DNA of 64,000 nucleotides from Persicaria tinctoria (taxonomy: Eukaryota > Streptophyta > Magnoliopsida > Caryophyllales > Polygonaceae). Below the pieces are notes generated by a model that was not told where the DNA came from, did no database searches, and saw nothing but the letters and a program-made list of their open reading frames with translations. Shown here piece after piece: positions 10,357 to 52,963 of the stretch. Location: positions 67,606,038 to 67,670,037 of the forward strand of contig JBANSL010000007.1 in NCBI GenBank assembly GCA_037127255.1, in the 5' to 3' direction. The translations under genes and the position numbers were made by a program. The stretch's first letter is position 1. Every line of letters begins with the position of its first letter.

Positions 10357-10662
10357 CTCGATATCGACAACTTCTACTCGATATCGACAAAAAATGTGCG
10401 CACAAGCCTGGTCGAGGAGGAGCTGATCGAGGAACTGAAGACGAAGTCAACCCGACTCCAGAATCTTACTCGACATCGAGTAAGTTACTCGATATCGACA
10501 AAGGCCCAAAGTCATACCTAGAGTCGAGGAGACAAACCTGATCGAGAAGCCGAAGACAAAGCCGCATGTCTAAGCCAGGTCGGGGAGCAGTTACTCGAGC
10601 AAGCCAGCCAAAGTCGACGTCACATTTCCTCGATATCGAGTACTTTTACTCGATATCGAGTA
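10357..10662. repeat. TCGANNTCGA palindrome array, U3 of LTR A1
   Basis: Repeated TACTCGATATCGA(G/C) words. Neighbouring decamers are often separated by 10 nt, for example TCGATATCGA, then GTACTTTTAC, then TCGATATCGA near 10630-10660. The array lies about 240 bp upstream of the TATA position. Confidence 0.85.
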
Positions 10663-11492
10663 GAATCTTCCTGGGTCGCGTTACACGGTTTGGCTGTCCG
10701 ACGCGGTTTGGACTTTCTTGGGAGCGAAGGAGTCCGAGAACTATCAAGTATATCAAGATTTATCCATGGAGAGAGAATTTATCCACACAAGAAGATATTT
10801 AGCTTTTTTCCCTTTTAAGATAAATATTCCCTTTATTAAAATTTTATCTTTAGATATTAGATATACTTTCTTTCCTTGATTAGCAAGGATTATAAGCCTA
10901 TAACTAAGGCCTTAGGGGCTGATTTCTATTCATTCAATTCAAGACACAATTAGTTACATAGAGGTAGAGAGAGAAAGAGTGAGTGGCCGAGAAGAGTTAA
11001 GGAGCGAGAGCAAGTTGGCTTTGATCGGTTGTAAAGCTCTGTTTGGTTTAATGCAAGTAGTTTATTTTCCATCAATGATGTCTGAAATCGCAATGAAGCG
11101 CGAGTAGTCCACCTACTTCTAGGGTTGAGGTGAGCCCGACGATAGCCCAGCGTGTCTCAGGTAAATATTCGACTTTTATCATTTTTTGAGCATCTACTAC
11201 TTGTTATGTGTTTATTACCCATATAATAGAGGTCCTTGCTAACAACTTGGATTGTAAACATAAAATCGGTAGATACAATTAGGGTTTCTTTAAAGAGTTG
11301 TCTAATTGTTGGAAAAGGTGACAACTTGGTCCTTCGATGCGATTTACATGATTATCTGTTTTATTCCTGCCTTATGCATGCTTGGTTATTGTTGTTGCAA
11401 ACCCCAATCTTGGAAGTTGTCTTTCATACATAGTTTATTTCGAATCCCACAAGCATTGTTCTTTATTTTGTTTCGGTTACTTTCTGTTCTTC

Positions 11493-11715
11493 CTCGATAT
11501 CGACTAAATCTGGTCGATATCGAGTACTAATATTCGATCGACGAAGACTGTTGTAGCTTCTCCTGTGCAGGTACCCGAGATCGACAAGAGGCTTCCTTGA
11601 TATCGAGGAGTTTTTCTCGATATCGAGTAACCACCGAGATCTGCTGCTGCTTTGTTCGACTTGCCTGATCTTCTGTCGACTAACCCTAGTCGAGATCGAG
11701 CACTATGATCGACTT
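11493..11715. repeat. TCGANNTCGA array, downstream cluster of LTR A1
   Basis: This second cluster lies downstream of the TATA box, in the expected R/U5 part. It includes TCGATATCGA, a 10-nt gap and TCGATATCGA near 11494-11523, and further copies near 11600-11630. Confidence 0.8.
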
Positions 11716-11892
11716 CTGTTCGTGAGATTCATCCGCTGCCTAAAATCCGCTGACACGCTTCCTCCTGGATCGATCTTGACTTACCACTTCTATATCGGGA
11801 GGAAGTCTTGTAATTATTTACAAGGGACGGAATCTGGTTTGCTTTGCTTTATTTATATTTTATTTGCATTCTCGATTTCCTCCTACAACAAA

Positions 11893-11910
11893 TTGGCGCC
11901 GTTGTCAGGG
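11893..11910 (+). other. Primer-binding site, tRNA-Asp type
   Basis: TTGGCGCCGTTGTCAGGGA follows the LTR end after a two-base gap. It matches the complement of the plant tRNA-Asp 3' end with one change (GTC for GCC) relative to the better-preserved site in element C. Confidence 0.8.
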
Positions 11911-11973
11911 AAGCAATCATTCGCACCTTAGGTAGTTAAATCTCAGATTTGCTTTGAGTTACTTCGTAGGTGT

Positions 11974-13404
11974 ATGCGCCGTTTTGGTCAACCATTTGAG
12001 TTTGACGGCTTAGACGAACCGGAACGCCTTATACACGTCCACACTAAACTCAAAAGAGCCATGGCTGCCGCAGAAACACAAGAACAGCTGATTGAGAGGC
12101 TTCGGAGGGAACTAACCACCAAAGATACTGCTATCGCCACTGAGATAACAGCCAGGGAACAGCAAGATGAGCGTGCGAGGCAAGCAGAAGCTGAGCTTGC
12201 CCAATATCCTACCACTGCAGAGGATTACATGCACCCGACCCTCGTCGTGCCTGAATCGGCTATTCTAATCCCTGAGAATACTTTTGAAATTCGCACTCAA
12301 TTCCTTATAGAACTAAAAAATAATGCTTTTCAGGGAAGATTTAATGAATGCCCTCTTGAACATATTACCAATTTTTTCTGACATGTGTCGTATTTTTGCT
12401 GAAGGTACTACTTTGGAATATGTCAAGATGAACGCCTTTCGATGGTCTCTCGCCGGTTCTGTATTGAAGTGGCTAGAAGGACTGAAACCACGATCCCTCA
12501 CAACATGGGCTCAAGTAGAGCAGGAGTTTCCCAACAAATTCTTCCCTCCAGCAAAGACAGCACTCCTCCGCCAGAAGATTACAGCTTTCAAACAGTAGCC
12601 TGGGGAGCCGCTGGCAAAAGCATGGGAACGATACAAGGAGCTACTGCGATCTTGCCCTACTCATGGACAACCACCCTATGTCATTCAAGAGATCTTCTTC
12701 AATTCTCTTGACCAAGTCACTAAGGACAGGATCAATCAGTATACTCGATATGAGAATCTGACGATGCCACCAGCGGACGCATGGGGTGTACAAGATAAGC
12801 TCACTAACTACGATAACAAGTATGGGGCTTCAACAAACTATGATGAAGATGCCTATGCCAGGCCAGCCCCATCCATGCCCCTCTATGAGCCTTCGAAGGA
12901 GATTGACCCAGATGTCAGGGAGTAGTACTACAGAGACCAGAATCGCAAACTCCTCAAGAAAGTCAAGTATCTCTCTGTCAACCAGCCTTGCATCGAATGC
13001 GGATCACAGCGGCACACCACTACTGAGTGCCCACACACAGAGCAAGTCAGGACGGCAGAGACACACGAAGAGGTAGCTTACGCAGGGGGTCCCAATTACT
13101 ATATGGATGATCAAAGGTTCTATCAACCACAATGGAACCAAGGTGCTCCTAGGAACCTCCCGCCATACAGAGCTCCAGGACATCCAGAAAGGGACCAAAA
13201 GAAGGATGATTTACAGCTCATCCTTGATGGGATGCGCCGGAATCAAGGCACCATCAACAATCAGTTCCAGAACATCAATGCAAAATTTGAAGAGCTAGAT
13301 ATCTGGAAAAAGAGCATAGAGCCCAGATGGGTCAATTCGCGGCCCAAATTCCACGACCGACCGGGCAAATCCCTGGGCAAACAGAACCAAATCCTAAGGG
13401 GATG
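11974..13404 (+). pseudogene. gag: Gag of Gypsy A
   Basis: It opens with MRRFGQPFEFDGLDEPER and a coiled-coil-like Gln/Glu/Arg stretch (residues about 25-80). The Retrotrans_gag core (FRWSLAGSVLKWLEG) follows, then a zinc knuckle CX2CX4HX4C at about 12989-13030. Breaks are an extra T near 12371-12377 that shifts frame, a TAG at 12596-12598 and a TAG at about 12923. It is about 77 codons longer than its core domain requires and collinear with the intact gag of element C (46004-47335), so those breaks are decay. The gag frame overlaps the next frame in the -1 direction from about 13291. Confidence 0.9.
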
Positions 13405-13770
13405 ACCGGATACCTCGCAGCTATAAAGCTCAGGAGCGGGCACCAATTACACGAGCAAGAGGTCGGAAAGCACCAAGACAAAGCAGAGCAGCAACTCGAC
13501 AACGAGCAACATCAACTCGATGTCGACCAAACCTTGGTCGATATCGACAAGAACCAACTCGACACAGAGGGGAATCTAAGCTCGGACTCATCTGCATAGC
13601 CCAGCAACTCGAGATCCACAACTGTTGTCGATATCGAGCAACCCCTTGTCGATGTCGAGGAGAAGTTGGCCGATGTCGAGGACTCTGCAACACCGCTGAC
13701 ATCTGTTCTGGCTCCGAAGCAGAAAAAGACACTGTCTTTCCCTTCCAAAGTGCTAAAAGATCCCACTGCA
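13291..13770 (+). pseudogene. Gag-protease linker of Gypsy A, 5' part
   Basis: This frame is -1 relative to gag. It carries KLRSGHQL and then coding TCGANNTCGA modules read as LVDIDK/LDVDQ-type peptides, ending SVLAPKQKKT near 13735. It is broken by a TAG at about 13597 and then by the CACTA insertion at 13771. The frame resumes at 16255. Spacing of the modules here is mostly 21 nt, which preserves the reading frame. Confidence 0.75.
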
Positions 13771-16254
13771 CACTACTAGAAAACTTCAATTAGACATCTG
13801 TTGTCAACAGATGTCTTTCAAAAAAAATTCCGATCTCTTTGTGCGTGTAGTAAAGATCCAAACTTTACACATCGGTTTTAAGCAGATGTCTTTTCTTAAT
13901 TAGAACCCCTAAATTTTAGTTATAACATATTCACTTGTTGATGAACATCCCTGATTTGTCATTTGAAAACATGTGAAGATGTCCTCCTAAAGCAAAAAAA
14001 TGACATTTACATCTTTATTTATAAAATAACTAATGTCTTAAGACATAATAGACAACATCTTTCATTTTATTGATCACATTTATAATCATGTCCGATATAT
14101 AACTTATGATTTTATATTGTTTTAATTTAACCAACCACATGAAATATAAGCATAACTGATGTATTTACATATTATCAACATCACATTCAGAGCATTCATT
14201 CTCTGTGTATTAATTTCATGTTCATTATATGTGATATTATATTGGTCTAAAAAAATGCACTATTGTGGTTGTATACACAGAAGATGTCATTTTCCACATT
14301 TATATCAGTTTTTTCAAAATAAAATGATGTTTTTACTGCAATGACACATCGATTTATTTAGCAAATAACGATGTTACTTTGACAAATATATATCAGTTCT
14401 TATATCATTTTAATGTTCAAACAGGTGTTGCACATTGATTTAAATGAATGAACTGATGTGTATAACTATACTGACATTTGTTTCCATAGACTGATATGAT
14501 GTTAAAGGTATGAATGCACTATTATTTTCATATATAATCTGATATCTTTTATTTCGATACACAACACGCTTTTGTTGATAGACCAACACATCTTATTTGT
14601 TCTTCCAAATGATATGTCGTTTAATGAAAACATGTACATAAATACTAGCATCATATTATAACATTTATAAAATACACCGCCGCTATTCATAGCTACAAAA
14701 TTGGCTCACTTCCATCTTTTATGTTGTTCGGCTCAGCAGGACCTTGTGAGTCCTCATCTGATCCATTTGATGGCTCATTTCTAGTCTTCCTTTTTGCCAC
14801 TAGAGACCTTACCCAACCTTGCAATTCTTCAGAACCTTGCTCTTTTTCTTAGAACCCATTTTCCCAAAAAAATCTGCAATGGAAAAATGTAATAAATTTA
14901 AACATAGTTTAAGAATCACACCAAGATGGAGCATGTCACTCGGTTGGGCAGCACAACATAACAGAAAGATAAAAATATGAAATTGAAGAGAGTATTCACT
15001 ATCGACAATTTAAGAATCACAGCATGAAAACGAGATGAATTAACTCCTCATCTCTAAGAAATTGAAGATAATAAATATGTATGAAACCAATTCGTATTTT
15101 TTATCACTCCATTTCTATCCCTTAAAATTAAGCTACGGAGCCTAATTTCATATATTCATACCATCTAAAAATAATATTTTATATAGTTTTTCTTCCTATC
15201 CCTTAAAAATCAAATTAAGGAATAAACAATATTTTCATTCAGACTTCAATTCCTGCCACTTAAAACTCCCACCACTTCCAGAATTGTACTTCCAGAATTA
15301 AAAGAGATACTTCTTTATGGGTGATCGAATATCACACATCTCAATGTAGGTTCTCGTACTTTTGTTTGATTATAAGTACTCTTCGCTCCAACCCATTGCT
15401 GCCTCAACTGGTTCCAAAGTAGTAGACCTACAGCCATAAGAAGGTACAAGGGTAAGCACTTTGCTTCAGTTATGTTTGAAAACAGGGATATTGTATCCTA
15501 GATACAAGGCATCACATTAAAGATTATGGTAAATATTGAGCATTAATAATAACAGAAAAGGAACCATCGACCATCACAAAACAAAGGACCAGTGACAGCC
15601 CTGAGGTAATCCTCAATGGCAATAGAAGGAAGTCGGATTCAGAGGAAGGAAGTCGGTGGTGGAAGAATGATGAGCTGAGAAGGAGGGGAGCCGACGATTT
15701 AGGGTTCTTCGAATCCCATCCATCTTCGCAGCGGCCGGGTCATCGGGATGGGCTTCAGACAGTTGATGGTCGGAGGAAGAAGAGAGCATTAAATCAAGGA
15801 GGAGGGTCGCCGGAGTGAGCTAGAGGAAGCTCGGATCTGGAGAGAGTTGAAGATTTGGGGCTCGGGGTTGGAGAGAAGAGAGTTGGAACGAGGTTGAATG
15901 TGAGGGGAGAGAGAAATTAAAGAAGATAGAAATTTTAACAAGGTTAAAAAACTGAGTCTGAAATTTTTTAAGTGTTAGCACAGTTTTCTCCAATTTTTTT
16001 TGAAAGTGAGCCTTCCCTCCAAAGCCCGCTCCAATTTTTTTCCAAGACTTTTTAATTCCGCCCCTTTTTTCAAACCGCGCGTGTCTGGCTTTTTTCATAA
16101 CTAAGAATTTTACATCTATCCTTATATTTGACAATTGTGTAAACTATTTTACACATCACAAAAAAATTTACTGATGTAATAAAATGATTTCACATCTGTT
16201 GATTTTTTGACAGACTTAAATTACATGATGTCTACTTACAGTATTCTAGTAGTG
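13771..16254. mobile_element. Non-autonomous CACTA (En/Spm) transposon
   Basis: It starts CACTACTAGAAAA and ends TTCTAGTAGTG. A perfect 3-bp target duplication GCA lies at 13768-13770 and 16255-16257. It is 2,484 bp with no transposase. Subterminal palindromic words such as AGACATCTG and CAGATGTCT lie near both ends (13792-13820 and about 16190-16215). Removing it rejoins the gag-protease linker of element A in frame, so it inserted after A did. The interior is AT-rich with no recognisable gene. Confidence 0.93.
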
Positions 16255-17349
16255 GCAGGTAAGTTTAAACATTTTGTTAATATGCTTCGAGAACATAATG
16301 TCTCTATTCCTTTTACAGAAGCTCTGCAAGAGATGTCTGCGTATGTCAAATTCCTAAAGGAAATCCTGAGCAACAAGCGATCTATCTCAGAAATCGCCAG
16401 CGAATGCAAAGTGTTCCACTTTCCTGAAAAGAGACCTGACCCTGGTAAGTTTTTTGTTACTGTGGGATTTTGACAATATAAATATGAGTCCTTGTGTGAT
16501 ATAGGAGCAAGTGTGAGCATCATGCCCTTATCAATCTGGAGAAAGGTGAAGATAGGGTCTATAGAGCCTGTGGATGCCAAGCTATACATGGCAAACAATA
16601 CAGTGATCATCCCTACAGGTATGGTTGAGAATGTCCCTGTCCAGGTTGGTAAGTTCTTTATCCCCACTGATTTCCTTATTATAGACTGTCCTGAAGATCC
16701 TACTAGCCCTATTATTCTTGGTAGACCATTCTTAGCTACTGCAGATGCCAAGATTAGTGTCAAACAGCGATTGCTCACTTTCACAATAGGCGATGAGGTC
16801 TTAGATTTCTCTTTTGGCCCTGAAAAAGAGGAAATTTCATGGCTGGAGGTGAAGAGCATCAGCAACCACGGGATCAGAAAAACAACGAAGGAAGGCACCA
16901 GAACTCTACTCGACATCGGAAAAGACTCCTCGATGTCGACCAAGCTTTTACTGGATGTCGACCAGTCGTCGTCGACATCGACTTCCCCTACTGAGCACCA
17001 GACTTGCCAAGAGCCTAAGTATGGGGTCCCTGTACTCGATATCAACCAGTCTTGCTCGATGTCGACTAACCCTAAGCCCGAAGATTTTTGTTTTGGACCT
17101 GAAAAGGTAAGTTCAGGTATGAGTTCTACTCCTCCTCAGTCCGTTAAGAAATTTATAAATAATTTAAGGGGAGGTAAGGCCCCGTGGCGAGAAAATATGC
17201 GGAAACTAAGAGTTGGAAAGAGAAAGAAGGGAGAAAAGGAAGATTATGCAAGCAACCACCTATCAGCCGAGCTTGCATACTACAACCAGGACCTAGATGA
17301 TCCAGGAGAAGAGCCAAGCACAAGCGGGCCCCACATTAACGGTCCTTGA
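16255..17349 (+). pseudogene. Protease region of Gypsy A
   Basis: Retroviral-type aspartic protease (RVP) with the active-site motif CDIGASVSIMP (Asp codon at 16498-16500) and the C-terminal ILGRPFLAT motif. It has one in-frame TGA at about 16471-16473 just before the active site. The tail (about 16905-17070) is a Ser/Thr/Asp-rich stretch made of TCGA modules (LLDVDQ, SMST). It ends in a basic, low-complexity region with no RT domain. The frame equals that of the gag linker before the CACTA insertion. Confidence 0.88.
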
Positions 17350-19011
17350 GCACAAACGGAGAAGTCGGCCTAGCGACTCTAAAATCTAGAGCATGTATAT
17401 AAAACTTTTTGAATTTTGGGACTTTGGAACTTTTGATTTTGGTTTTTTATTTTGGTTTTTTAGTTTAGAATACTTCTTGTGGAAAGTCTTGTCTTTGTGT
17501 GCAATCTAAGACTTTTAGGTCGGCAAGCATAAAAGGATCGCGAAAGGTGGAATAAGAAGTCCCTGAAAAACAGTCGAAATCGACTAGGCCAGTCGAGAAC
17601 GACTAAGAGAAGCAGCCCACAGTTACTCGATATCGAGTAGGCCAACTCGCTATCGACCAAGTCAAAAGGTTCCTCGACTTCAGCATTCCACTAGACGATG
17701 ACAGATTACTCAATATCGAGTACAGTACTCGATATCGACAAATCCAGTTCCTCGACATGCCCTGTATTACCTTCCTCGACGTATTATTCGGTGAGTTCCT
17801 TCCTTTACTCTTGTTTTTATTTGATTTTATACAGTGGGGACACTGTATATTTTAAGTATGGGGTGGGGGAAGAGCTCATTATCAATATTATATGTTTTAT
17901 TCTTGTTTTTGGTTTTACATGGTGAATTTTGAGTAAATTTCAAAGCTTTATAAGACATCTCCCATTGCTTGTCAATTGTTCAAAGAAATAGTGTCATGGA
18001 AGCTTTAATTGAGCTCGATGATGCAAAATTGGATTCATTAGAGATATAGCATGAAATTGCCTAGTAAAGGGAAGTCACAATGAAGTGCATTATTTTTATA
18101 AAAACCATGAAATGAGGTAATTTTGAAGTTGCTTCTGACATGTTGCATGATAAGACGACAGATGACTTTATATTTCCATGTAATGCTCATATTGTTATAT
18201 TCCTTAGCCACACCTATGCTTATGCATCACAAAAGCCATATTATGCCTTATTTCAATTATTGTTCCACATGATCTAAATATTGCCATTCTTTACCTTATT
18301 TCCTATCCGGGGATTATGTTGAGAATGATGTTACATTATGGAGATTGTTATATGGTTGTTGTGTTGTTATCATTATTGGAGTTTAGTAGGAAATTGTTCG
18401 AAATATATGGAAAATTAAATGAGTGAAAGAAAATCCGGTCACCTCAGGAGATAAAGGTAGATCGACCCTGCCTACGTTGAGATAATAGTTCCGCGAGATG
18501 GGACACAATGTGAGGAGTCCAAAGCACTAAGTATCCGGGGCCATTCATGACACCCAGGTTTGCGACTCGCGAGAAGGCAGTGCCGAGGTTAGAGAGGTAA
18601 AAGCATTATTATTGGGAAAAGCATTTATGAAAGGTGATGAATCTTATGAAGAAGGGATGTGGTATGAAAGTTTGGAAATAATCCATTTCCCCGGATTATT
18701 AGCACCACATAGCCAAAAATTGCCCACCTTTAGCCTTTTACCAATCTACTTCTTATTGAGCTTAATTAAAGTCATCTTGATTATTAATGCTTTGTCACAT
18801 AAATTGTTTTTGCATTACCCTCCTTTTGTGAGTAGATGTTGCTTTTATTTGCACATGCATTGATTTGGGGCACAAGTACCATTTCGATGATGGTCATTGA
18901 TTACGGGGACATATAAGAATGAATCTATGATATTGAGAGTTTTAAATACTTCCCCTGAATGACCATCCAAGTTATTGCTTGGGGACAAGCAAGCTTAAGT
19001 ATGGGATGATT
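17350..19011 (+). other. 3' non-coding region of Gypsy A with duplicated purine tract
   Basis: It contains more TCGANNTCGA modules (about 17580-17750) and then an internal purine-rich tract, TTAAGTATGGGGTGGGGGAA, near 17851-17872. About 1.1 kb of sequence homologous to 49930-50900 of element C follows. The terminal purine tract TTAAGTATGGGATG lies at about 18994-19008, directly before the 3' LTR. No open frame is conserved between A and C here. Confidence 0.75.
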
Positions 19012-19874
19012 TGATGTCCACTAAAATAGCCATGTTGAAATGCACATTTTAGCTCCATATTCTATACACTTTGCATATTTCGGGATGGGAATATGTTGAA
19101 TTTATGTAATATATGCTTATTTGCAAGAAATAGAGGTCTACATAAGTTTTGGTTTAATATTACAGAATTTGGGGCCATCCTGGGACAAAACCAAGCAGCA
19201 AAGACGGGGGCTAAACTTTACTCGATATCGACAAAAAATGTGCGCACAAGCCTGGTCGAGGAGGAGGTGATCGAGGAACTGAAGACAAAGTCAACCCAAC
19301 TCCAGAACCTTACTCGATATCGAGTAAGTTACTCGATATCGACAAAGACCCAAAGTCATACCTGGAGTCGAGGAGACAAACCTGATCGAGAAGCTGAAGA
19401 CAAAGCCACACCGAGCAACATTTCCTCGATATCAAGGAAAGTAACTCGATATCGACAAGACCAGAAGCCCATGTCGAAGCCAGGTCGGGGAGCAGTTACT
19501 CGAGCAAGCCAGCCATCCGAAGTCGACGTCACATTTCCTTGATATCGAGTACTTTTACTCGATATCGAGTAGAATCTTCCTGGGCCGCGTTACACGGTTT
19601 GGCTGTCCGACGCGGTTTGGGCTTTCTTGGGAGCGAAGAAGTCCGATATCTATCAAGTATATCAAGATCTATCCATGGAGAGAGAATTTATCCACACATG
19701 AAGATATTTAGCTTTTTTTTCCCTTTTAAGATAAATATTCCCTTTATTAAAGTTTTATCTTTAGATATTAGATATACTTTCTTTCCTTGATTAGCAAGGA
19801 TTAGAAGCCTATAAATAAGGCCTTAGGGGCTGATTTCTATTCATTCAATGCAAGACACAATTAGTTACATAGAG

Positions 19875-19928
<54 letters not shown>

Positions 19929-20837
19929 AGTGGCCGAGAAGAGTTAAGGAGCGAGAGCAACTTGGCTCCGATCGGTTGTAAAGCTCTGTTTGGTTTAATG
20001 CAATTAGTTTATTTTCCGTCAATGATGTCTGAAATCGCAATGAAGCGCGAGTAGTCCACCTACTTCTAGGGTTGGGGTGAGCCCGACGATAGCCCTGCGT
20101 GTCTGAGGTAAAGATTCGACTTTTATCATGTTTTGAGCATCTACTACTTGTTATGTGTTTATTACCCATCTAATAGAGGTCCTTGCTAACAACTTGGATT
20201 GTAAACATAAAATCGGTAGATACAATTAGGGTTTCTTGAAAAAGTTGTCTAATTGTTGGAAAAGGCGAAAGCTTGGTCCTTCGATGCGATTTACATGATT
20301 ATCTGTTTTATTCCTGCCTTATGCATGTTTGGTTATTGTTGTTGCAAACCCCGATCTTGGAAGTTGTCTTTCATACATAGTTTATTTCGAATCCCACAAG
20401 CATTGTTCTTTATTTTGTTTCGGTTACTTTCTGTCCTTCCTCAATATCGACTAAATCTGGTCGATATCGAGTACTAATATTCGATCGACGAAGATCGTTG
20501 TAGCTTCTCTTGTGCAGGTACCTGAGATCGACAAAAGGCTTCCCCGATATCGAGGAGTTTTACTAGATATCGAGTAACCACCGAGAGCTGCTGCTGCTTT
20601 GTTCGAATTGCCTGATCTTCTGTCGACTAACCCTAGTCCAGATCGAGCACTGTGGTCGACTTCTGTTCGTGAGATTCATCCGTTGCCTAGGATCCGCTGA
20701 CACGCTTCCTCGTGGATCGATCATGACTTCCCACTGCTAGATCGGGAGGAAGTCTTGAAATTATTTGCAAGTGACGGAATCTGGTTTGCTTTGCTTTATT
20801 CATATTTTATTTGCATTCTCGATTTCCTCCTACAACA
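19012..20837 (+). repeat. 3' LTR of Gypsy A
   Basis: It is 1,826 bp. It has an intact TATAAATA at 19810-19817, TCGANNTCGA arrays at about 19221-19570 and 20440-20650, and a pure GA tract at about 19868-19926 that is almost absent from the 5' LTR. It ends TACAACA, followed by GCCGA. Confidence 0.92.
19868..19926. repeat. (GA)n microsatellite in LTR A2
   Basis: An uninterrupted GA run of nearly 60 bp. The matching place in the 5' LTR (about 10965-10985) has only a short GA run, so it expanded after insertion or contracted in the other copy. Confidence 0.9.
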
Positions 20838-20842
20838 GCCGA

Positions 20843-39546: not shown

Positions 39547-39702
39547 ACTCGATACAGAGGAGATCTTGTCGATCTCGAGGAGGACCTTTGTCGAGGTCGA
39601 GTACGTTCTTGCCTGTCGAGTTGATTGCCTTTGTTTTCTGTTTTCTGTTTTCATTACTGTTCTTGTCGACCTAGAGGACAGTTACTCGACTTCGAAGTAG
39701 CT
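39547..39702. repeat. TCGANNTCGA array, downstream cluster of solo LTR B
   Basis: The second cluster lies after the TATA box and leader, with TCGATCTCGA, TCGAGGTCGA and relatives. Its position matches the second cluster in LTR A. Confidence 0.75.
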
Positions 39703-40440
39703 TCTGTGTCCTCGAGTTGCTTTCTGCTTTACTTTTGTTTCTGCTTTGTTTCTGTTTTGCTTTGCTTCCTGTCTTTAGTTTGTTCTTTGCTTTTGTTTTT
39801 ATTGCCCTTGCCGGGTTTATTTCTGTTTCTGCGTTTTTGTCTTTCTGCTGCTGTTGTGAGAATTTACAGCTACCTGAGAATTGCTGACGTGCCTCCTCGT
39901 GGATTCGATCCTGATTTTCTCTTACTACAACGGGAGGAAGTCTTGTATTTATTTGCTGAGACAGGGAAGTCAGTCTGAACTTTATTTTATATTCATTTCA
40001 ATACTCGATTTACTCCTGCAACAACAGTTTGTTTAATACAATGTTAGTTATCACCATCCTATTGTTTGAAATGCAGCGTATGGGGTTTCTGCTTCATCGT
40101 CTGGATGTTGTGCTTGCTCGGGGTGATGCTTGGGTTACCACAGATGAGATTCGGGAGTACGTTGAAGAAGCGCGGGGTGGAGAGGTGCCTTTGGTGCATA
40201 CTCAGGTTCGGGCATCTCAGTTTTTCCAATTTATGCCAAACCCCTGATGAGTGGCATAGAGCTGTCAGATTCCTTGAGCGTAGTTGTTGTATCTGTATTG
40301 TCTTTCTTGGTACTTGTATTTGTATTGTCGTTGCAAACATATGTTCTTGTGATTCATGTACTCTGTTTTGGTATGGACATTGCAACTTAAGATAACCTTG
40401 TACGACATGAGGATTGCTGCATCTTTAATATTGTATGAGA

Positions 40441-43760: not shown

Positions 43761-43775
43761 TGGTATCACAGCCTA
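43761..43775 (+). other. Primer-binding site of Copia D
   Basis: TGGTATCACAGCCTA directly follows the LTR. It resembles the TGGTATCAGAGC site complementary to initiator tRNA-Met used by many plant Copia elements. Confidence 0.75.
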
Positions 43776-43873
43776 AGATCCAAAGACCAAATTTTTCTTT
43801 CTCTCCTTGTTCTAAACCCTAGCCACCCCCTCCCCTTGTGCCGCCACCCTCCCCCCCCCCCCCCCTCGGCCAC

Positions 43874-45920
43874 TGTTGTGAGCGAAATCTGCCATGTTTT
43901 ACAGTAACTTTTATATCGATTTCTGTATACATTGCATTTATTTGGGTTTAAATAGTACAGAATCTATGTAGTTTATGCTTATTTGTCAAATTATGGAATC
44001 TACACCAGTTTCTGTTTAAATCGCAGAAATCGAGGCATTTACAGCAATTCTACAGAAGGTCGGAAAAGCTCGGAAAAACACTACAAAAGTCCAGGGTCAA
44101 AGCAGCGGAACAAGTCTGAGAGGCAAGGCTACTCGACATCGAGTAAGCCTACTCGACATAGACCACCATGTCCGAGCACCAGCTTGGTCGACAAGGCATG
44201 GTCGAGAGAGCGAGACAACCCGAGCTCCGGACACTACTCGACCTCGATAAGCCCTCGTCGAGGTCGACGAAGCCCAGACGCCCACGTCCGGAGTCGACGA
44301 GGAGAAGCTGTCCGAGGACGAAGCCGAGGACGACCAGGAGACTCGCTGCAGCGGAAGTGACCACTCGCTGCCGCGGACCAAGCCACTCGCTACCAGCGGA
44401 AGAGCCAGCTCGCGGAAGCGGAAGCAGACACCCAACTCGACCTCGAGGAGCACTTGTCGAGGTCGACGAAGACCTTGAGACATGTCCGAGCATGTCCGAG
44501 CCAGTCGAGCACACCCACCCGAGGAGGCTAGTCGACAGAGCCACCCTTGTCGAGGTCGACGAGGCCAACTCGAGATCGACAAGAGTCCAGTGAGCCAACT
44601 CCGAGCCACATCGAGCAGAGTCAAGCCGAGCCGAGAAGTCGTACTCGAGGACGAGTAGACCTACTCGAGGTCGAGTAAGGCAGTGTCCAGAATCTTCTCG
44701 ACTAGCCCTGTCCGAGTAGAGTTGACGTTGCTTGGTCGCGAAGGCGGAAAATTCTATCCCGATCTATCGAGTTCTATCCAAGGAGACAAGATCTATCAAC
44801 ATCATGAAGACCTACCATAATTAGTTTTATCTTTTCTTTATTGATTTATTTCCTAAAAACAATTTATTTATCTTTTAAGCTTTTAGATATAGATTTAGAT
44901 AGAGATAGATATCTTCTTTCCTAGAATAGCTAGGGAATGAAGCCTATAAATAAAGCCCATGGGGTTCAGTTTTATTTATTCAATTTCAGATCAAGACAAG
45001 TAGTTCCACAGAGAAGTTTAGGGGTTCTAAGGTTTTTAGGGTTTTGGCTTTCTGCGAAAGTTGATTGCCAGGATTGTAAAGGCTTTGAATTTAGTTTTAA
45101 TGCAAGTTTCTTTTCATCAATCAATGTCTATTATTGCGATGAGGCGTGAGTAGTCCACCCACTTCTGGGGCTGGGGTGAGCCCGACGGTGGCCATGTGAG
45201 GCGATGCGATAAAGGTCAGATCTTTTGTGCGATTCATCTTCTATCCCTATGAGCATGATTCTTTTGCGAGAGTTGAAGGTGATCCTTGCTTGTGTTATTG
45301 AAGCGAAAGTGATCTTAATGCAACTTGGATTAATTATGTGAAAAAGGGTTAGTAACAATTAAGGTTTATGCGAGAGCCTCTATTTGCCTATTTGTTAATG
45401 ACGAAAGTTATTTGATGGAAAGCATGATCTTTTATGCCTTTATGTATTGTTTTGCATGGTTATCGTTGTGGTGTTGAAACCCCGACCTTGGAAGTCTTTT
45501 AATATATTTGAAGTTAGTTTCTGTCAAAATCTGAGTTTTGGTTCGAATTCTGCAATTTAAAGTTTCTGTCTTTACTTTCTTTGTCGAGATCGACCAGTCT
45601 TTGCCTTTGCTTTTCGTTTCTGCTTGCTTCTGTTTGGCTTTGCTTTACTTTTTGTCTTTAGTTTCTGTCTTTGCTTTTGTTTTAGTTGCCCTTGCCGGGT
45701 TTATTTGTTTCTTTCTGTTTCTGCGATTCTCTCTGTTCTGCCCTGCTTCTATGAGAATCTACAGCTACCTAAGAACTGCTGACGTGCTTCCTCGTGGATT
45801 CGATCCTGATTTTCTCTTACTACAACGGGAGGAAGTCTTGTATTTATTTGCTGAGACAGGGAAGTCAGTCTGAACTATATTTCATATCTATTTCATACTC
45901 GATTTACTCCTGCAACAACA
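43874..45920 (+). repeat. 5' LTR of Gypsy C
   Basis: It starts TGTTGTGAGC and ends TGCAACAACA. It has TATAAATA at 44945-44952 and a TCGA array at 44131-44680. A TC-rich, Phe-coding-like stretch lies near 45590-45740. Confidence 0.95.
44131..44680. repeat. TCGANNTCGA array, U3 of LTR C1
   Basis: It includes TCGACCTCGA, 10 nt and TCGAGGTCGA (twice), TCGAGGTCGA, 10 nt and TCGAGATCGA, and TCGACATCGA, 10 nt and TCGACATAGA. The GC-rich array keeps long frames open on both strands; these are not genes. Confidence 0.88.
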
Positions 45921-45922
45921 AA

Positions 45923-45941
45923 TTGGCGTCGTTGCCGGGGA
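45923..45941 (+). other. Primer-binding site of Gypsy C
   Basis: TTGGCGTCGTTGCCGGGGA lies two bases after the LTR end and complements the plant tRNA-Asp 3' end with a single change. Athila/Tat Gypsy elements use this site. Confidence 0.85.
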
Positions 45942-46003
45942 AGCAAACAATCGCGCCTTAGGTAGTCAGTTCTCACTGTTTCTTTGAGTTAGTTTGCAGG
46001 TGT

Positions 46004-47335
46004 ATGCGTCGTTCTGGTCAAACACCTGAGTTTGACAGCTTAGACGAACCGGAGCGCTACCTACACATCCACTCCAAACTCAAAAGGATCATGGCGGCCG
46101 CTGAAACACAGGAACAGTTGATCGCTAGGCTTAACAGGGAATTGGCCACAAAGGATGCTGTTATCGCCACTGAGAGAACAGCAAGGGAACAAGCAGCTGA
46201 GCGCGCGAGGCAAGCGGAAACTGAGCTTGCCCAATATCCAACCACTGCTGAGGATTATATGCATCCGACTCTCATCGTGCCTGAATCGGCGATTCTTATC
46301 CCTGAAAACTCTTGTGAAATTCGCACTCAATTTCTTATAGAGCTTAAAAATAATGCCTTTTATGGCAGATTTAATGAGTGTCCTCTTGAACATATTACTA
46401 ATTTTCATGATATGTGCCGTACTCTTGCAGAAGGTACAACATTGGAATATGTCAAGATGAAAGCTTTTCGCTGGTCGCTCACTGGGCCTGCACTGAAATG
46501 GCTGGAAGGGCTGAAAGCAAGATCACTCACAACCTGGGCCCAAGTAGAGCAAGAGTTTCTGAACAAATTCTTCCCACCCGCCAAAAAAGCACATCTCCGC
46601 CAGAAAATCACCGCCTTTAAACAGCAGAAAGGGGAACCACTGGCAAAGGCATGGGAGCGCTACAAGGAACTTCTGCGATCTTGCCCTACTCATGGACAAC
46701 CACCCTACATCATTCAGGAGATCTTCTTCAACTCTCTTGATCAAGTCACTAAGGACAGAATCAACAATTATACTCGCTACAAGTATCTGACGATGCCGCC
46801 AAGTGACGCATGGGGTGTGCTAGAGAAGCTCACCAACTACGACAACAAGTATGGGTCTACTGTAACCTATGAAGAGAACCCATACGCCAGGCCAGCACTA
46901 TCCATGCCCCTATATGAGCCATCTAAAGAGATTGATCCTGATGTTAGGGAGCAATACTACAGAGACCAGAATAAGAAGCTCCTCAAGCAAGTCAAATATC
47001 TCTCTGTTAACCAGCCTTGCATAGAATGCGGATCGCAAAGGCACACCACTCCTGAGTGCCCACACACAGAGCAAGTCAGGATGGCAAAGCATCATGAGGA
47101 TGTAGCTTACGCAGGAGGGCCTAATCGCTATATGGGGGATCAAAGGCCTTATCAACAGCAATGGAACCAAGGTCCCCCTAGGAATCCTCCACCTTACAGA
47201 GCTCCAGGACATCTAGAAAGGGATCAAAAGAAGGATGATCTGCAGCTGATCCTTGAGGAGATGCGACGAAATCAGGGCACCATCAATAACCAGTTCCAGA
47301 ACATCACCACCAAATTTGGAGAACTGGACATCTAG
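46004..47335 (+). CDS. gag: Gag protein of Gypsy C
   Basis: An uninterrupted 443-codon frame starts MRRSGQTPEFDSLDEPERYL. Residues about 25-85 are an Ala/Glu/Arg coiled-coil-like stretch. The Retrotrans_gag core spans about 130-260 (FRWSLTGPALKWLEGLKARS, then RQKITAFKQQKGEPLAKAWE). A zinc knuckle CX2CX4HX4C (CIECGSQRHTTPEC) sits at about 340-352. It would form the virus-like particle and bind element RNA. The start is the ATG 64 bp after the primer site, shared with element A. The TAG end falls where A has a Trp codon in ELDIW, so it may be a recent truncation or the natural end before a frameshift. The next frame is -1. Confidence 0.93.
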   Translation: MRRSGQTPEFDSLDEPERYLHIHSKLKRIMAAAETQEQLIARLNRELATKDAVIATERTAREQAAERARQAETELAQYPTTAEDYMHPTLIVPESAILIPENSCEIRTQFLIELKNNAFYGRFNECPLEHITNFHDMCRTLAEGTTLEYVKMKAFRWSLTGPALKWLEGLKARSLTTWAQVEQEFLNKFFPPAKKAHLRQKITAFKQQKGEPLAKAWERYKELLRSCPTHGQPPYIIQEIFFNSLDQVTKDRINNYTRYKYLTMPPSDAWGVLEKLTNYDNKYGSTVTYEENPYARPALSMPLYEPSKEIDPDVREQYYRDQNKKLLKQVKYLSVNQPCIECGSQRHTTPECPHTEQVRMAKHHEDVAYAGGPNRYMGDQRPYQQQWNQGPPRNPPPYRAPGHLERDQKKDDLQLILEEMRRNQGTINNQFQNITTKFGELDI

Positions 47336-47349
47336 AAAAGGGGAATTGA

Positions 47350-49371
47350 GACTCAAATAGGAAGATTTCTGCGCAGATCCCACGACAGTCTCGCAAGCTC
47401 CCTGGGCAAACAGAACCAAATCCTAAGGGAAAGACTGGACACATCGCTGTTGTAAAACTCAGAAGCGGCCATCAATTACAGGAGCCAGAAGTCGGGAAAC
47501 AACAGAACGACAAGCATCTGGTCGACCTCGACAAGACCCTAGTCGACCTCGAGGAGAAAATTCCAGAATCTTCGTCTGCACCACACAGCAACTCGACTGG
47601 GCCCAATCTGGTCGATATCGACAAAGGACTTGTCGATGTCGAGGAGCCCTTGGTCGAGAAATCTGCAGCAACTCCAACGTCTGTTCTGGCTCCGAATCAG
47701 AAAAAGAAGCTGCCTTTCCCCACCAAATCTCTAAAGGACCCAGCGGAGAAAAAGTTTCAGCGCTTCATCAAGATGCTTCAGAAGCTGAACGTCACCATCC
47801 CCTTCACAGAAGCTCTCAATGAAATGCCGTCCTACGTCAAATTCCTAAAGGAGATTCTGAGCAAAAAGCGATCAATGGCTGAAATTACAGAGGAGTGCAG
47901 CCAGTTGGACATACTGGAAAAGAGGCCGGATCCAGGTAAGTTTGCTCTAACTATTGGATTTGGTCCATACAAAATTAATGCCCTATGTGATCTTGGAGCT
48001 AGTGTTAGTATTATGCCTTTGACGATTTGGTCCAAGATTAAGATAGGTGCCCTGGAGCCTGTGGATGCTAGACTTTACATGGCCAACAACACGGTGGTCA
48101 TTCCAACAGGCATGGTGGAAAATGTCCCAGTACAAGTAGGTAAATTCTTCGTCCCTGCTGATTTCTTAATTATTGATATGCAAGAAGATCCTGCTTGTCC
48201 AATTATTCTAGGGAGACCATTCTTGGCGACGGTGGATGCCAACATAAGCGTAAGGAAAGGAGTGCTCACCTTCAACATCAGCGATGAAGTAATTGAGTAT
48301 TCCTTCAACAAAACTGAAAGGCATACGGGTCCGATGGAAGAGGTCAAATCTATCTCAGCTGGCTACATCACCTGCGTGGAACCCAAGGTCAGGAATATGA
48401 CCCCCGAGGAGCTAGAAAAGAGGGACATGGAGGCCCAGGTGGAGGAGATCATGGCAATCCTCAAGGAGAACACAAGGACTAAGTATGGGGTCAAGATCGA
48501 CCAAATCCTAGTCGATCTCGACCAAACCAAGGAGACTCCACCAGAGCCAGCTTCGTCGAGCAGCAAACCGGAGGAGCCACCCTACTCGATCTCGAGTAGG
48601 CTCGTCGAGGTCGACCAAAACTCGGGGAGCCCAGAGCCTGCTTCCTCGACACTGAGAACACCAGATCCAGGAGCCTCGTCGAGGTCGACCACCCTTGTCG
48701 AGATCGACAAGCCCGTTGCTGACTCGGCTTCATGTCCCTCGACACAGACTCCACCAGACGGACAACCTTCGTCGATCTCGACTAGTCTACTCGAGGTCGA
48801 CCACGAGTCGGCACCACCAGACCCTGTGTTCTCGAGGAGCGACCTACCAGGAGCAGAACCTTTGTCGATCTCGACCACCTTACTCGAGGTCGACAAGACC
48901 AAATCTTCCTCGACGCCATCTTCCTCGACGATGCAGCCACCAGTGCCAGAACCCTACTCGATGTCGAGTAGTCTTGTCGAGGTCGACCAGCCCCTGTCTT
49001 CACCAGCTCCTGCTTCCTCGACCAGGACACCACCAGAGCCTGCAGTCTCGTCAATCTCGAGGAGCCCTAGTCGAGATCGACCAAACACCGTGGTCCCCGA
49101 TTCCGTCTTTGCGAAGGTGAGCCAAGGTATGGATCTTTCTTCTCCTATTTCCATTAAAGATTTATCTATACATGGGAGAGGTCTGCCTTGGTGTGTGCGA
49201 TTGTGCAGGATTTCCAATGATGAGCCTAAGGAGTATGAAGTTGGAGACAAGCTCTATGTCTCCAAATCAAAGAATCATTGGTTTCCCAACAAATTCAACA
49301 AGAAGCGGATGGGACCATTCGTGGTGAACAAGATCCATTCTGGAGGATTACAGCTGATGGACAAGAATTGA
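47350..49371 (+). CDS. Protease-linker-integrase tail frame of Gypsy C
   Basis: Open from just after a TGA at 47347-47349 with no early ATG; the first 100 codons are TCGA-module peptide (LVDLDKTLVDLEE). Aspartic protease: CDLGASVSIMP (Asp at about 47989) and ILGRPFLAT near 48220. From 48497 to 49085 a linker of about six or seven repeats of 24-28 residues follows, each with SIS-x-x-LVEVD and a Ser/Pro-rich spacer. The last 50 residues (YEVGDKLYVSKSKNHWFPNK, then MGPFVVNKI) resemble the C-terminal tail of Gypsy integrases. RT, RNase H and the integrase core are absent, as if deleted between protease and integrase tail. Translation probably depends on fusion to gag by -1 frameshift; this is inferred. 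Confidence 0.88.
   Translation, partial: DSNRKISAQIPRQSRKLPGQTEPNPKGKTGHIAVVKLRSGHQLQEPEVGKQQNDKHLVDLDKTLVDLEEKIPESSSAPHSNSTGPNLVDIDKGLVDVEEPLVEKSAATPTSVLAPNQKKKLPFPTKSLKDPAEKKFQRFIKMLQKLNVTIPFTEALNEMPSYVKFLKEILSKKRSMAEITEECSQLDILEKRPDPGKFALTIGFGPYKINALCDLGASVSIMPLTIWSKIKIGALEPVDARLYMANNTVVIPTGMVENVPVQVGKFFVPADFLIIDMQEDPACPIILGRPFLATVDANISVRKGVLTFNISDEVIEYSFNKTERHTGPMEEVKSISAGYITCVEPKVRNMTPEELEKRDMEAQVEEIMAILKENTRTKYGVKIDQILVDLDQTKETPPEPASSSSKPEEPPYSISSRLVEVDQNSGSPEPASSTLRTPDPGASSRSTTLVEIDKPVADSASCPSTQTPPDGQPSSISTSLLEVDHESAPPDPVFSRSDLPGAEPLSISTTLLEVDKTKSSSTPSSSTMQPPVPEPYSMSSSLVEVDQPLSSPAPASSTRTPPEPAVSSISRSPSRDRPNTVVPDSVFAKVSQGMDLSSPISIKDLSIHGRGLPWCVRLCRISNDEPKEYEVGDKLYVSKSKNHWFPNKFNKKRMGPFVVNKIHSGGLQLMDKN
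48497..49085 (+). repeat. Coding TCGANNTCGA array in Gypsy C
   Basis: Paired decamers are separated mostly by 9 nt, for example TCGATCTCGA, CTAGTCTAC, TCGAGGTCGA near 48773-48801. The pairs themselves recur every 75-100 bp. The first decamer of each pair reads SIS, the second VEVD or VEID. Confidence 0.88.
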
Positions 49372-50916
49372 GTCTTATTTGAGGCCCAAGCTACATGGGC
49401 CCTACAGATGCCACCTTAAGCATTAATGGAGAAAGTCGGTCTAGTGACTATAAAATCTAGAGCATGTACATAGACTCTTTTTAGAACATTTGAGACATTG
49501 TCTTTGCTTGTTTTTGGTTTTGAACATTTTTTGTTTTTTTTTATTTCTATTATGGGTATATGTCTTCTACTTTTTCAGGTCAATGGATAGAACCAAGCTA
49601 CAATTAGGAGGTGCTCCATTCGAAATTTTGCGGCTCTGCACTCATGTCTTGTGAGTTTCTTTCTTTACCCTTTACATTGTTTTTATACAGTGAGGACACT
49701 GTAATATTTAAGTATGGGGTGGGGGAAGGGCTTAATTTATGCATATTTGCCATATTTGACATTATGTGTGCATTATTTCTTTGAATTGCTACATGGCTAA
49801 GTTTGGAATGCATTATTTATTTATGTGTTTATATGCATGTTTTCCAAAAGTTTGAAAAAAATTACCCCGACCCCCATTGAAATTTTTCGAATAATGTCAT
49901 GGAAGCTTATATTGAACTCGATGATGCAAAATTGGATTCATTAGAGATAAAGCATGAAATTGCCTAGTAAAGGGAAGTCACAATGAAGTGCATTATTTGA
50001 TGAAAACCATGAAAGGAGGTAAAATTTGAAGTTGCTTTTGACATGTTGCATGATAAGATGATGGAGGACTTTATATTTCCATATAATGCTCATATTGTTA
50101 AATCCTAAGCCTTACCCATGCTTATGCATCACAAAAAGCCATAATATGCCTTATTTTAAATATTGCTCCACATGATCTAAATATTTGCCATTCTTTACCT
50201 TATCCGGGGATTATGTTGAGAATGATGTTACATTATGGAGATGTTATATGGTTGTTGTGTTGAGATTATCATTATTGGAGTTTGGAAGGAAATTGTTTGA
50301 AATATATGGAAAATTTAATGAGTGAAAGAAAATCCAATCACCTCAGGAGATAAAGGTAGATTGACCCTGCTCTCTGAGATAATAGTTTGGAGAGATGGGA
50401 CACATTGTGAGGAGTCCGACGCACTAAGTATCCGGGGCCATTCATGACACCCATGTTTGCGACTCGCGAGAAGGCAGTGCTGAGGTCAAAGAGGTAAAAG
50501 CATTATTATTGAGAAAAGCAATATGAAGGGTGATGAATCTTATGAAAAAGAATGTGGTATGAAATTCAATTTGGAAATACTCCATTTCCCCGGATCGAAA
50601 GCACCACATTGCCAGAAATTGCCCACCTTTAGCCTTTTACCAATCTACTCCTTCATGAGCTTAAATTAAAGTCTTCTTGATTATCAATGCTTTGTCACAT
50701 AAAAATTGTTTTTGCATAACCCTCCTTTTGTGAGTAGATGTTGCTTTTATATATTTGCACATGCATGAATCTGTGACACTAGTACCTTTTCGAGGATGGT
50801 AATTGATTGCAGGGACATATGAGAATGAATCTAATATGTTGAGAGTTTTGATTTCTTCCCCTGAGTGACAAGTAAAAGTATTGCTTGGGGACAAGCAAGT
50901 TTAAGTATGGGGTGTT
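49372..50916 (+). other. 3' non-coding region of Gypsy C
   Basis: Homologous to 17350-19011 of element A, including an internal purine tract TTAAGTATGGGGTGGGGGAA at about 49708-49729. The terminal tract TTAAGTATGGGGTG at about 50901-50914 directly precedes the 3' LTR. There is no conserved open frame. Confidence 0.8.
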
Positions 50917-52963
50917 TGTTGTGAGCGGAATCTGCCATGTTTTACAGTAACTTTTATATCGATTTCTATATACATTGCATTTATTTGGGTTTAAATAGTA
51001 CAGAATCTATGTAGTTTATGCTTATTTGTCAAATTATGGAATCTACACCAGTTTCTGTTTAAATCGCAGAAATCGAGGCATTTACAGCAATTCTACAGAA
51101 GGTCGGAAAAGCTCGGAAAAACACTACAGAAGTCCAGGGTCAAAGCAGCGGAACAATTCTGAGAGGCAAGGCTACTCGACATCGAGTAAGCCTACTCGAC
51201 ATAGACCACCATGTCCGAGCACCAGCTTGGTCGACAAGGCATGGTCGAGAGAGCCAGACAACCCGAGCTCCGGACCCTACTCCACCTCGACAAGCCCTCG
51301 TCGAGGTCGACGAAGCCCAGACGCCCACGTCCGGAGTCGACGAGGAGAAGTTGTCCGAGGACGAAGCCGAGGACGACCAGGAGACTCGCTGCAGCGGAAG
51401 TGACCACTCGCTGCCGCGGACCAAGCCACTCGCTGCCAGCGGAAGAGCCAGCTCGCGGAAGCGGAAGCAGACACCCAACTCGACCTCGAGGAGCACTTGT
51501 CGAGGTCGACGAAGACCTTGAGACATGTCTGAGCATGTCCGAGCCAGTCGAGCACACCCACCCGATGAGGCTAGTCGACAGAGCCACCCTTGTCGAGGTC
51601 GACGAGGCCAACTCGAGATCGAAAAGAGTCCAGTGAGCCAACTCCGAGCAACATCGAGCAGAGTCAAGCCGATCCGAAAAGCCGTACTCGAGGACGAGTA
51701 GACCTACTCGAGGTCGAGTAAGGCAGTGTCCAGAATCTTCTCGACTAGCCCTGTCCGAGTAGAGTTGACGTTGCTTGGTCGCGAAGGCGGAAAATTCTAT
51801 CCCGATCTATCGAGTTCTATCCAAGGAGACAAGATCTATCAACATCATGAAGACCTACCATAATTAGTTTTATCTTTTCTTTATTGATTTATTTCCTAAA
51901 AATAATTTATTTATCTTTTAAGCTTTTAGATATAGATTTAGATAGAGATAGATATCTTCTTTCCTAGAATAGCTAGGGAATGAAGCCTATAAATAAAGCC
52001 CATGGGGCTCAGTTTTATTCATTCAATTTCAGAGCAAGACAAGTAGGTCCACAGAGAAGTTTAGGGGTTCTAAGGTTTTTAGGGTTTTGGCTTTCTGCGA
52101 AAGTTGATTGCCAGGATTGTAAAGGCTTTGAATTTAGTTTTAATGCAAGTTTCTTTTCATCAATCAATGTCTATTATTGCGATGAGGCGTGAGTAGTCCA
52201 CCCACTTCTGGGGCTGGGGTGAGCCCGACGGTGGCCATGTGAGGCGATGCGATAAAGGTCAGATCTTTTGTGCGATTCATCTTCTATCCCTATGAGCATG
52301 ATTCTTTTGCGAGAGTTGAAGGTGATCCTTGTTTGTGTTATTGAAGCGAAAGTGATCTTAATGCAACTTGGATTAATTATGTGAAAAAGGGTTAGTAACA
52401 ATTAGGGTTTATGCGAGAGCCTCTATTTGCCTATTTGTTAATGACGAAAGTTATTTGATGGAAAGCATGATCTTTTATGCCTTTATGTATTGTTTTGCAT
52501 GGTTATCGTTGTGGTGTTGAAACCCTGGCCTTGGAAGTCTTTTAATATATTTGAAGTTAATTTCTGTCAAAATCTGAGTTTTGGTTCGAATTCTGCAATT
52601 TAAAGTTTCTGTCTTTACTTTCTTTGTCGAGATCGACCAGTCTTTGCCTTTGCTTTTCGTTTCTGCTTGCTTCTGTTTGGCTTTGCTTTACTTTCTGTCT
52701 TTAGTTTCTGTCTTTGCTTTTGTTTTAGTTGCCCTTGCCGGGTTTATTTGTTTCTTTCTGTTTCTGCGATTCTGTCTGTTCTGCCCTGCTTCTGTGAGAA
52801 TCTACAGCTACCTAAGAACTGCTGACGTGCTTCCTCGTGGATTCGATCCTGATTTTCTCTTACTACAACGGGAGGAAGTCTTGTATTTATTTGCTGAGAC
52901 AGGGAAGTCAGTCTGAACTATATTTCATATCTATTTCATACTCGATTTACTCCTGCAACAACA
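50917..52963 (+). repeat. 3' LTR of Gypsy C
   Basis: It is 2,047 bp and collinear base for base with the 5' LTR. It has TATAAATA at 51988-51995 and a TCGA array at about 51174-51723. Differences visible by eye include GCGAAATC versus GCGGAATC near the start. Confidence 0.95.

Follow-up and report, generated by a model that had tools for sequence, protein, structure and literature searches.

Three copies of a Gypsy-type long terminal repeat (LTR) retrotransposon, here designated A, B and C, lie in a 64,000-nucleotide stretch of Persicaria tinctoria DNA (contig JBANSL010000007.1, positions 67,606,038 to 67,670,037), and all three carry arrays of a short palindromic site, TCGANNTCGA. This stretch is referred to below as the window, and all counts are for this one 64-kb window and its three element copies. 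The window holds 68 exact TCGANNTCGA sites, compared with a mean of 0.83 and a maximum of 5 in 100 dinucleotide shuffles, and the arrays reported in A, B and C by the initial annotation are thus confirmed and stronger than it had described. All 68 sites are within A, B or C and none is in the ~42 kb outside them, despite the presence there of 132 TCGA tetramers. Considering only non-duplicated regions, there are 10 sites in the 5' LTR of A, 10 in the interior of A, 9 in B, 9 in the 5' LTR of C and 16 in the interior of C, versus means of 0.36–0.90 per region and a maximum of 5 in a third-order Markov control that kept the TCGA frequency (500 simulations each). The 14 sites of the two 3' LTRs were removed as duplicates, leaving 54 sites for analysis, 28 of them in LTRs and 26 in the interiors of A and C, so that the arrays do lie in LTRs, as first annotated, but are not restricted to them.

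Elements carrying the sites

The LTRs of C (43874–45920 and 50917–52963) are 98.5% identical (30 mismatches in 2,047 positions, no gaps) and enclose a gag gene at 46004–47335 (PF03732 Retrotrans_gag, E = 3.7e-17) and an open frame running from stop to stop at 47350–49371. That frame includes a stretch resembling a protease (Asp_protease_2; E = 3.7e-4 in the tested piece, under the curated cut-off) and a long repeat-bearing extension. Element A has LTRs at 10148–11890 and 19012–20837 with a self-match identity of 91.6–94.6% across three blocks, flanks (ACCGA/GCCGA) that differ at one of five positions and an imperfect TATA box in its 5' LTR, CTATAACT. At the DNA level, the gag regions of A and C share 83% identity. 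The gag of A is broken up and its pieces had no Pfam match singly, while the frame at 16474–17349 matched an aspartyl protease weakly (E = 0.0021, under the cut-off). The Pfam scan of stop-to-stop open reading frames (ORFs) covered 9 of the 29 listed, every one on the plus strand, and no reverse transcriptase or integrase was matched in the scanned pieces of A and C, which cover part of the internal frames. Where an organism is given for a relative of C gag, it is a plant (Rhodiola, Linum, Chenopodium or Primulina); the closest relative matches at 90% over 55% of the query. The plant relatives often have aspartyl protease domains. The Gypsy-type designation is based on the PF03732 match of C gag and on these protease domains, the elements themselves having no pol match for placement. 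A primer site, TGGCG(C/T)CGTTG, is present and is probably that of tRNA-Asp, as in Athila-type elements. The elements may resemble the Athila/Tat lineage; their matches are to Retrotrans_gag and, under the cut-off, to aspartyl protease.

Table 1. Elements A, B and C and the palindromic sites that they carry (positions in the window; site centres in bp from the TATA box).
Feature	Positions	Strand	Description	Site centres
Element A	10148..20837	+	Gypsy-type LTR retrotransposon, broken gag and protease-like remnants	
A 5' LTR U3 array	10358..10659		6 exact sites, 3 pairs at 19–20 bp	-535 to -243
A 5' LTR downstream (R/U5) array	11494..11699		4 exact sites	+601 to +797
A gag–protease spacer array	13517..13658		4 exact sites, surrounded by sites matching 7 of 8 core letters	
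A post-protease ORF array	16930..17065		3 exact sites	
A post-stop sites	17574..17738		3 exact sites; none kept at the corresponding place in C	
A 3' LTR copies	19222..20470		6 exact sites; array differs from that of the 5' LTR by indels of 20 bp and 61 bp	
Element B	37824..40026	+	Solo LTR, 5-bp target duplication GTTTG	
B U3 array	38212..38654		6 exact sites	-697 to -264
B downstream array	39569..39695		3 exact sites	+660 to +777
Element C	43874..52963	+	LTRs, gag and protease-like open frame; target duplication GCCAC	
C 5' LTR U3 array	44133..44674		8 exact sites	-806 to -274
C 5' LTR downstream lone site	45584..45593		1 exact site	+645
C gag–protease spacer	47522..47642		4 exact sites forming two 21-bp pairs; three of the sites align to A 13538, 13628 and 13649	
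C post-protease coding array	48512..49080		12 exact sites, mainly 19-bp pairs repeated every 93 bp (31 codons)	
C 3' LTR copies	51176..52636		8 exact sites	

Form, spacing and placement of the site

The sites were chosen by their eight core letters alone, with the flanking positions outside the selection, and the flanks were nevertheless constrained with dyad symmetry: T at -3 in 50 of 54 sites, A at +12 in 52, and C or G (S) at -1 in all 54 and at +10 in 52. The two central letters (NN) were also constrained, since A is avoided at +4 (B in 53 of 54) and T at +5 (V in 53 of 54). The site derived from these preferences is YTNSTCGABVTCGASNAR, 18 bp with the core TCGA-NN-TCGA, and 46 of the 68 sites match it in full, compared with none in 100 shuffles. 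The extended form named in the initial annotation, CTAC...GTAG, turned out not to be frequent (left CTAC in 11 of 54 sites, right GTAG in 6 of 54), the general form being YTNS...SNAR. Eleven of 12 compartments are occupied: the U3 and R/U5 regions of all three elements, the gag–protease spacer and post-protease ORF in both A and C, and the post-stop stretch of A. In each of these most sites conform to the preferences above; the twelfth, the post-stop stretch of C, has no sites. The 132 isolated TCGA tetramers outside the elements do not have such flanks.

Matrices trained on one element recovered the sites of the others, counting the places that outscored everything outside the elements and including the 3' LTR copies: the A-trained matrix gave 12 (B) and 39 (C), the B-trained matrix 43 (A) and 39 (C), and the C-trained matrix 35 (A) and 12 (B). 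Each site contains two CpGs, and the arrays have CpG observed/expected ratios of 1.0–1.5; for the U3 arrays, the GC content and ratio are 0.587 and 1.13 in B, 0.613 and 1.14 in C, and 0.487 and 1.40 in A. Several known binding sites were considered and provisionally set aside (the heat-shock element, HSE; the TCX site, TTYGAA; the auxin-response element, AuxRE; and the IDD site), on the grounds that C and G are equal at -1 or that the core flanks exclude A and T. A literature search with the motif letters gave no plant LTR topic among the titles of the matches listed.

Spacing was counted with sites matching at least seven of the eight core letters included. In the LTR set (the 5' LTRs of A and C, and B), neighbours were 19, 20, 21 and 22 bp apart in 1, 12, 1 and 2 cases, respectively, so that 12 of the 16 close pairs had the 20-bp spacing, whereas the corresponding counts were 6, 3, 7 and 1 in the coding stretches and spacers and 2, 1, 0 and 0 in the post-stop stretch. 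The 20-bp spacing is thus characteristic of the LTR copies, the coding copies being mainly 19 or 21 bp apart, and the two-turn phase that had been proposed is exact in the LTRs alone. Exact 10-nucleotide linkers were found, as annotated, at 10630/10650, 11494/11514, 38406/38426, 44238/44258 and 44437/44457; the named pairs at 19539/19559, 38305/38325 and 44645/44665 are also present, but with one member matching only 7 of 8 letters, and the pair near 38600 (38624/38645) is 21 bp apart with one such member.

As a control, prokaryotic and viral loci were fetched by the pair pattern (at least 120 IMG/VR stretches, 80 among the matches listed, plus four, and 84 GTDB contigs, 80 among the matches listed). 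In the pattern-selected, non-plant set of 207 loci obtained in this way, spacings of 19, 20, 21 and 22 bp occurred 7, 8, 181 and 2 times, the value of 21 bp (181 of 198 close pairs) being attributable to coding phase, from which the 20 bp of the LTRs differs. Control loci had at most two extended sites each, versus 46 in the window, with some GC-rich bacterial loci having up to 12 bare TCGANNTCGA per 8 kb. No plant relative was recognised among these 207 pattern-fetched IMG/VR and GTDB loci. When IMG/VR was searched by gag for related loci, a pattern was matched in 2 stretches, neither of which was confirmed.

On a larger scale, clusters in the LTRs (again including sites with seven of eight letters) recur with a period of about 100 bp, and the coefficient of variation of their gaps was 0.27 versus 0.57 for random placement (P = 0.0004, four arrays with three or more clusters), a comparison in which spacings and clusters are not independent draws because the LTRs of A, B and C have a common ancestry. 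Clusters lie on both sides of the TATA box, as annotated, and the distances to the nearest site agree for A, B and C (-243, -264 and -274 upstream; +601, +660 and +645 downstream). The U3 clusters start 210, 388 and 259 bp inside the LTRs of A, B and C and extend for 302, 443 and 542 bp.

Constraint acts on DNA letters rather than protein

The core letters were better kept than the near flanks in all seven A–C and B–C comparisons having sites. For example, 30/32 core versus 30/56 flank letters were kept for gag–protease spacer sites ascertained in C, and 57/80 versus 46/140 for the LTRs from A to C, in alignments by MAFFT, which anchors on motifs, and with gaps scored as loss. Around this core the arrays are labile. 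B and C are 92.6–93.6% identical from just before the TATA box through most of R/U5, yet their sole long array match is 72% over 210 columns, and segments of the B LTR resemble the coding array of C (85–88% over 31–48 columns). Together with the array indels between the two LTRs of A (Table 1), these observations indicate that units duplicate and are lost with the core retained, and units may move between the LTR and the internal region.

The coding sequence of C provides the clearest separation of DNA from protein. All 16 internal C sites are within the one open frame at 47350–49371, where they occupy codon phases 0, 1 and 2 in 5, 10 and 1 cases, and the 12 sites of the coding array alone occupy them in 5, 6 and 1 cases. 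Across seven 93-bp units of that array, conservation was 0.982 for the 16 core columns compared with 0.679 for NN and 0.684 for the 73 other columns, a core excess that was not equaled in any of 20,000 permutations. Among the five units that align without gaps, every core letter (16/16) was invariant versus 20/77 of the others, as were 4/4 third codon positions in the core versus 7/27 elsewhere, and in the GTC/CTC and GTC/ATC codon swaps the residue is altered while the core letter is retained. The constraint therefore acts on the DNA letters rather than on the protein. No homologue of the coding repeat region was found at E = 0.001 among 7,994 scored candidates.

Several other features were noted in and around the elements. 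An apparently nested CACTA-type DNA transposon (13771–16254) lies in A between the gag–protease spacer and the protease, with ends CACTACTAG/CTAGTAGTG and GCA flanking it on each side. The stretch before the 3' LTR (17791–19175 in A, 49651–51079 in C) is ~81% alike between the two elements, near the 83% of gag, and the longest ORF there in C is 77 residues. Within the gag of A and C, Rfam snoR71 (RF00097) was matched in antisense (minus strand, 12563–12669 and 46592–46698) with 40.1 and 42.4 bits, barely over the gathering score of 40; the model may be detecting retrotransposon gag rather than a small nucleolar RNA. Adjoining the solo LTR B is a 384-amino acid ORF (40441–41595, minus strand) with no Pfam match at 1e-3, whose DSHCGYRAL stretch resembles OTU-type proteases. 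A Copia-type ORF at 53163–55006 (RVT_2 in 53906–55006) is downstream of C, which may sit in or beside a Copia element, and at 62701–63285 there is a tandem repeat of 167-bp units that are 80–94% alike.

Interpretation and comparison with known systems

From the form and distribution of the sites, we infer that YTNSTCGABVTCGASNAR is probably recognised by a sequence-specific DNA-binding protein that acts as a dimer, and that the elements have multiplied the site as a cis-regulatory array. Each half-site, YTNSTCGAB, would be read independently by one subunit of the dimer, and neighbours at 20 bp would place two dimers on one face of the helix. Such pairs would be presented at intervals of roughly 100 bp ahead of the TATA box, again about 0.6–0.8 kb downstream of it, and along the gag–protease and post-protease coding stretch, in an array spread by duplication and presumably kept by selection on DNA. 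The array would most likely drive or protect transcription of the element, either by recruiting an activator or by excluding silencing marks, with a host activator or an anti-silencing factor as the candidate binder. In our judgement, the presence of copies downstream of the TATA box and in coding sequence speaks more for a factor acting on chromatin across the element than for a simple upstream activator. A phased protein-binding array was among the options raised in the initial annotation and is the best supported of them, although its exact phase applies to the LTRs only. A more specific version, which we regard as tentative and on balance unlikely, is that the array is an element-wide platform for an anti-silencing or trans-mobilising factor of the Gypsy retrotransposon. 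It would then be a shared address tag that lets an autonomous partner, or else a host protein that has been hijacked, recognise and keep active both the partner itself and pol-less relatives such as A and C, and the tag would have overwritten coding sequence and forced peptide repeats on the polyprotein.

An alternative is that the palindromes act as structural RNA or cruciforms, i.e., as hairpins, in dimerisation (kissing loops, packaging) or in the production of small interfering RNA, and palindrome clusters in maize Sireviruses are indeed described as small-RNA hotspots (PMC5311732, PMC10760457). The array RNAs fold strongly relative to shuffles (z = -5.1 for the U3 of C, -7.3 for that of A, -5.6 for that of B and -6.6 for the C coding array), so the proposed check by LTR RNA folding gave a positive result, but not a discriminating one, because a motif-free LTR stretch folds equally well (z = -5.65; gag, z = -1.07). 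That stretch, the R/U5 of C at 45000–45560, is ~93% conserved between B and C and is a possible structured leader RNA in its own right; it had no Rfam match at the gathering score. Pooled over 18 neighbouring pairs, with wobble allowed, the NN letters could pair in 13 cases versus 6.9 expected (p = 0.003), an excess that disappeared per element (A, p = 1.0; B and C, 0.15; B and C LTRs, 0.29; C ORF, 0.38), and flank symmetry was in excess at one of 12 positions (k = 9; p = 0.012, uncorrected). The flanks of the two half-sites did not covary (2.39 matching letters versus 2.42 shuffled, p = 0.61), which argues against RNA or cruciform pairing. Furthermore, complementary letters adjoining the core were found in 30 of 54 sites versus 25.9 expected (p = 0.16), and positions -1 and +10 were C/C or G/G, which would break the stem, in 22 of 54. 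The kissing-loop role suggested earlier is thus disfavoured, and an RNA or cruciform explanation as a whole appears to us quite unlikely.

It is likewise quite improbable, in our estimation, that the array is a neutral minisatellite, a short unit without function that was spread by reverse transcriptase slippage and template switching. The indels between the A LTRs, the 93-bp tandem coding repeats and the similarity of B LTR segments to the C coding array are all as expected from such a process, but neutral copies would vary evenly, whereas here the core and symmetric flanks are fixed while NN, the linkers and non-core third positions vary, and positions relative to the TATA box are kept across A, B and C. 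Selection at the protein level on a repeat of the SIS-LLEVD type, with the DNA motif as a by-product of the codons, could be considered given that 12 of the 54 sites form part of the sequence coding for a regular 31-residue repeat of C. This explanation is largely refuted by the 28 sites in LTRs, the three past the stop codon of A, the use of three codon phases in one frame and the fixation of core third positions, and we give it almost no credence.

Some results weigh against a conserved protein-binding site. The core is not retained everywhere: for B sites in C, 50/72 (0.69) core letters were kept, below the 0.789 identity of the stretch, for C LTR sites in A it was 36/72, below 0.590, and the three post-stop sites of A are lost in C (core 13/24, flank 10/42). 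Slippage, as seen in the 20-bp and 61-bp indels within the array of the two A LTRs, could explain the copy number. Isolated TCGA tetramers inside the elements (n = 135) also have a partial flank bias (T at -3 in 60/135 and A two bases past the tetramer in 67/135). In addition, the range of 80–128 bp, into which 13 of 15 gaps between LTR clusters fall, was picked post hoc after inspection of the data, and the 93-bp units were set by BLAST self-match, with core columns defined by their own consensus. Lastly, the three copies represent two related subfamilies in one window, and site counts overstate the number of independent events because many sites are related by descent.

The closest counterparts of the arrays are the repeated motif boxes of the Sireviruses, described as palindromic, CpG-rich, present in 8–32 copies per element and located upstream of the TATA box (Bousios et al. 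2010, PMC2829016). In that account they mostly begin 200–400 bp into the LTR and extend for 300–500 bp, internal copies are reported for nine elements, mostly before the env gene, and a regulatory role awaits experiment according to the authors (PMC2829016). Our elements have 9–10 exact sites per LTR and 10–16 internal ones, likewise at least eight copies per element, and the arrays of A, B and C occupy nearly the same place in the LTR before the TATA box, that of C being slightly longer (542 bp); they may be largely alike in CpG richness as well, the GC content being lower in the U3 of A (0.487). The differences from the boxes as described are that Sireviruses are Ty1/Copia elements, 12 of 13 families of which have CGG-CCG at the core of the box (for Tnd-1, ACAATCGATTGT; PMC2829016), whereas here the gag is Gypsy-type and the core is TCGA-NN-TCGA, and that our sites form 20-bp pairs and have copies downstream of the TATA box and in gag–protease and post-protease coding sequence. 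The initial statement that no described LTR family has this signature accordingly stands for the exact motif in the literature searched, but repeated palindromic LTR boxes as such were already known. Literature searches at the level of titles and the start of abstracts found no description of the exact motif or of a Gypsy equivalent among the matches listed.

Other systems resemble the arrays in part. Tnt1 and other Copia elements have repeated, partly symmetric activator boxes in U3, comparable to the U3 arrays here; those boxes differ in sequence, have fewer copies and are not known outside U3. Box I of Tnt1 is also named in the Sirevirus study (PMC2829016). The VANC target arrays of Arabidopsis VANDAL DNA transposons consist of the non-palindromic motifs YAGTATTAY or AGTTGTMC in non-coding regions (Hosaka et al. 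2017, PMC5735166), and these transposons are described as encoding their own binder (PMC5735166). They are a precedent for a motif multiplied within a transposon serving anti-silencing (PMC5735166, PMC10398659) and are like our arrays in the multiplication of a short motif within the element and in tandem turnover between related copies, but unlike in that no VANC-like gene was present among the scanned ORFs of A or C; the window does not contain an autonomous partner. Retand, a Gypsy non-chromovirus with some non-autonomous members, is comparable as a Gypsy element with internal repeats; its tandem repeats lie between pol and the 3' LTR and have no function assigned in that report (PMC11963269). 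The Retand arrays differ in being family-specific and near the 3' LTR, and the passages of the report drawn on here give no LTR-wide palindromic motif (PMC11963269).

This kind of array is known from Sireviruses; the new features are its occurrence in a Gypsy-type element, the motif itself, the pairing at 20 bp and the extension into coding sequence. The arrays extend the repeated-palindrome type of putative LTR control from Copia Sireviruses to a Gypsy-type element, and they refine such a region to a defined 18-bp dyad site, with halves that appear to be independent, that is maintained even in coding sequence. The 18-bp site would be a concrete probe for its binder and for asking whether pol-less retrotransposons and their partners have an address for activation or anti-silencing in common.

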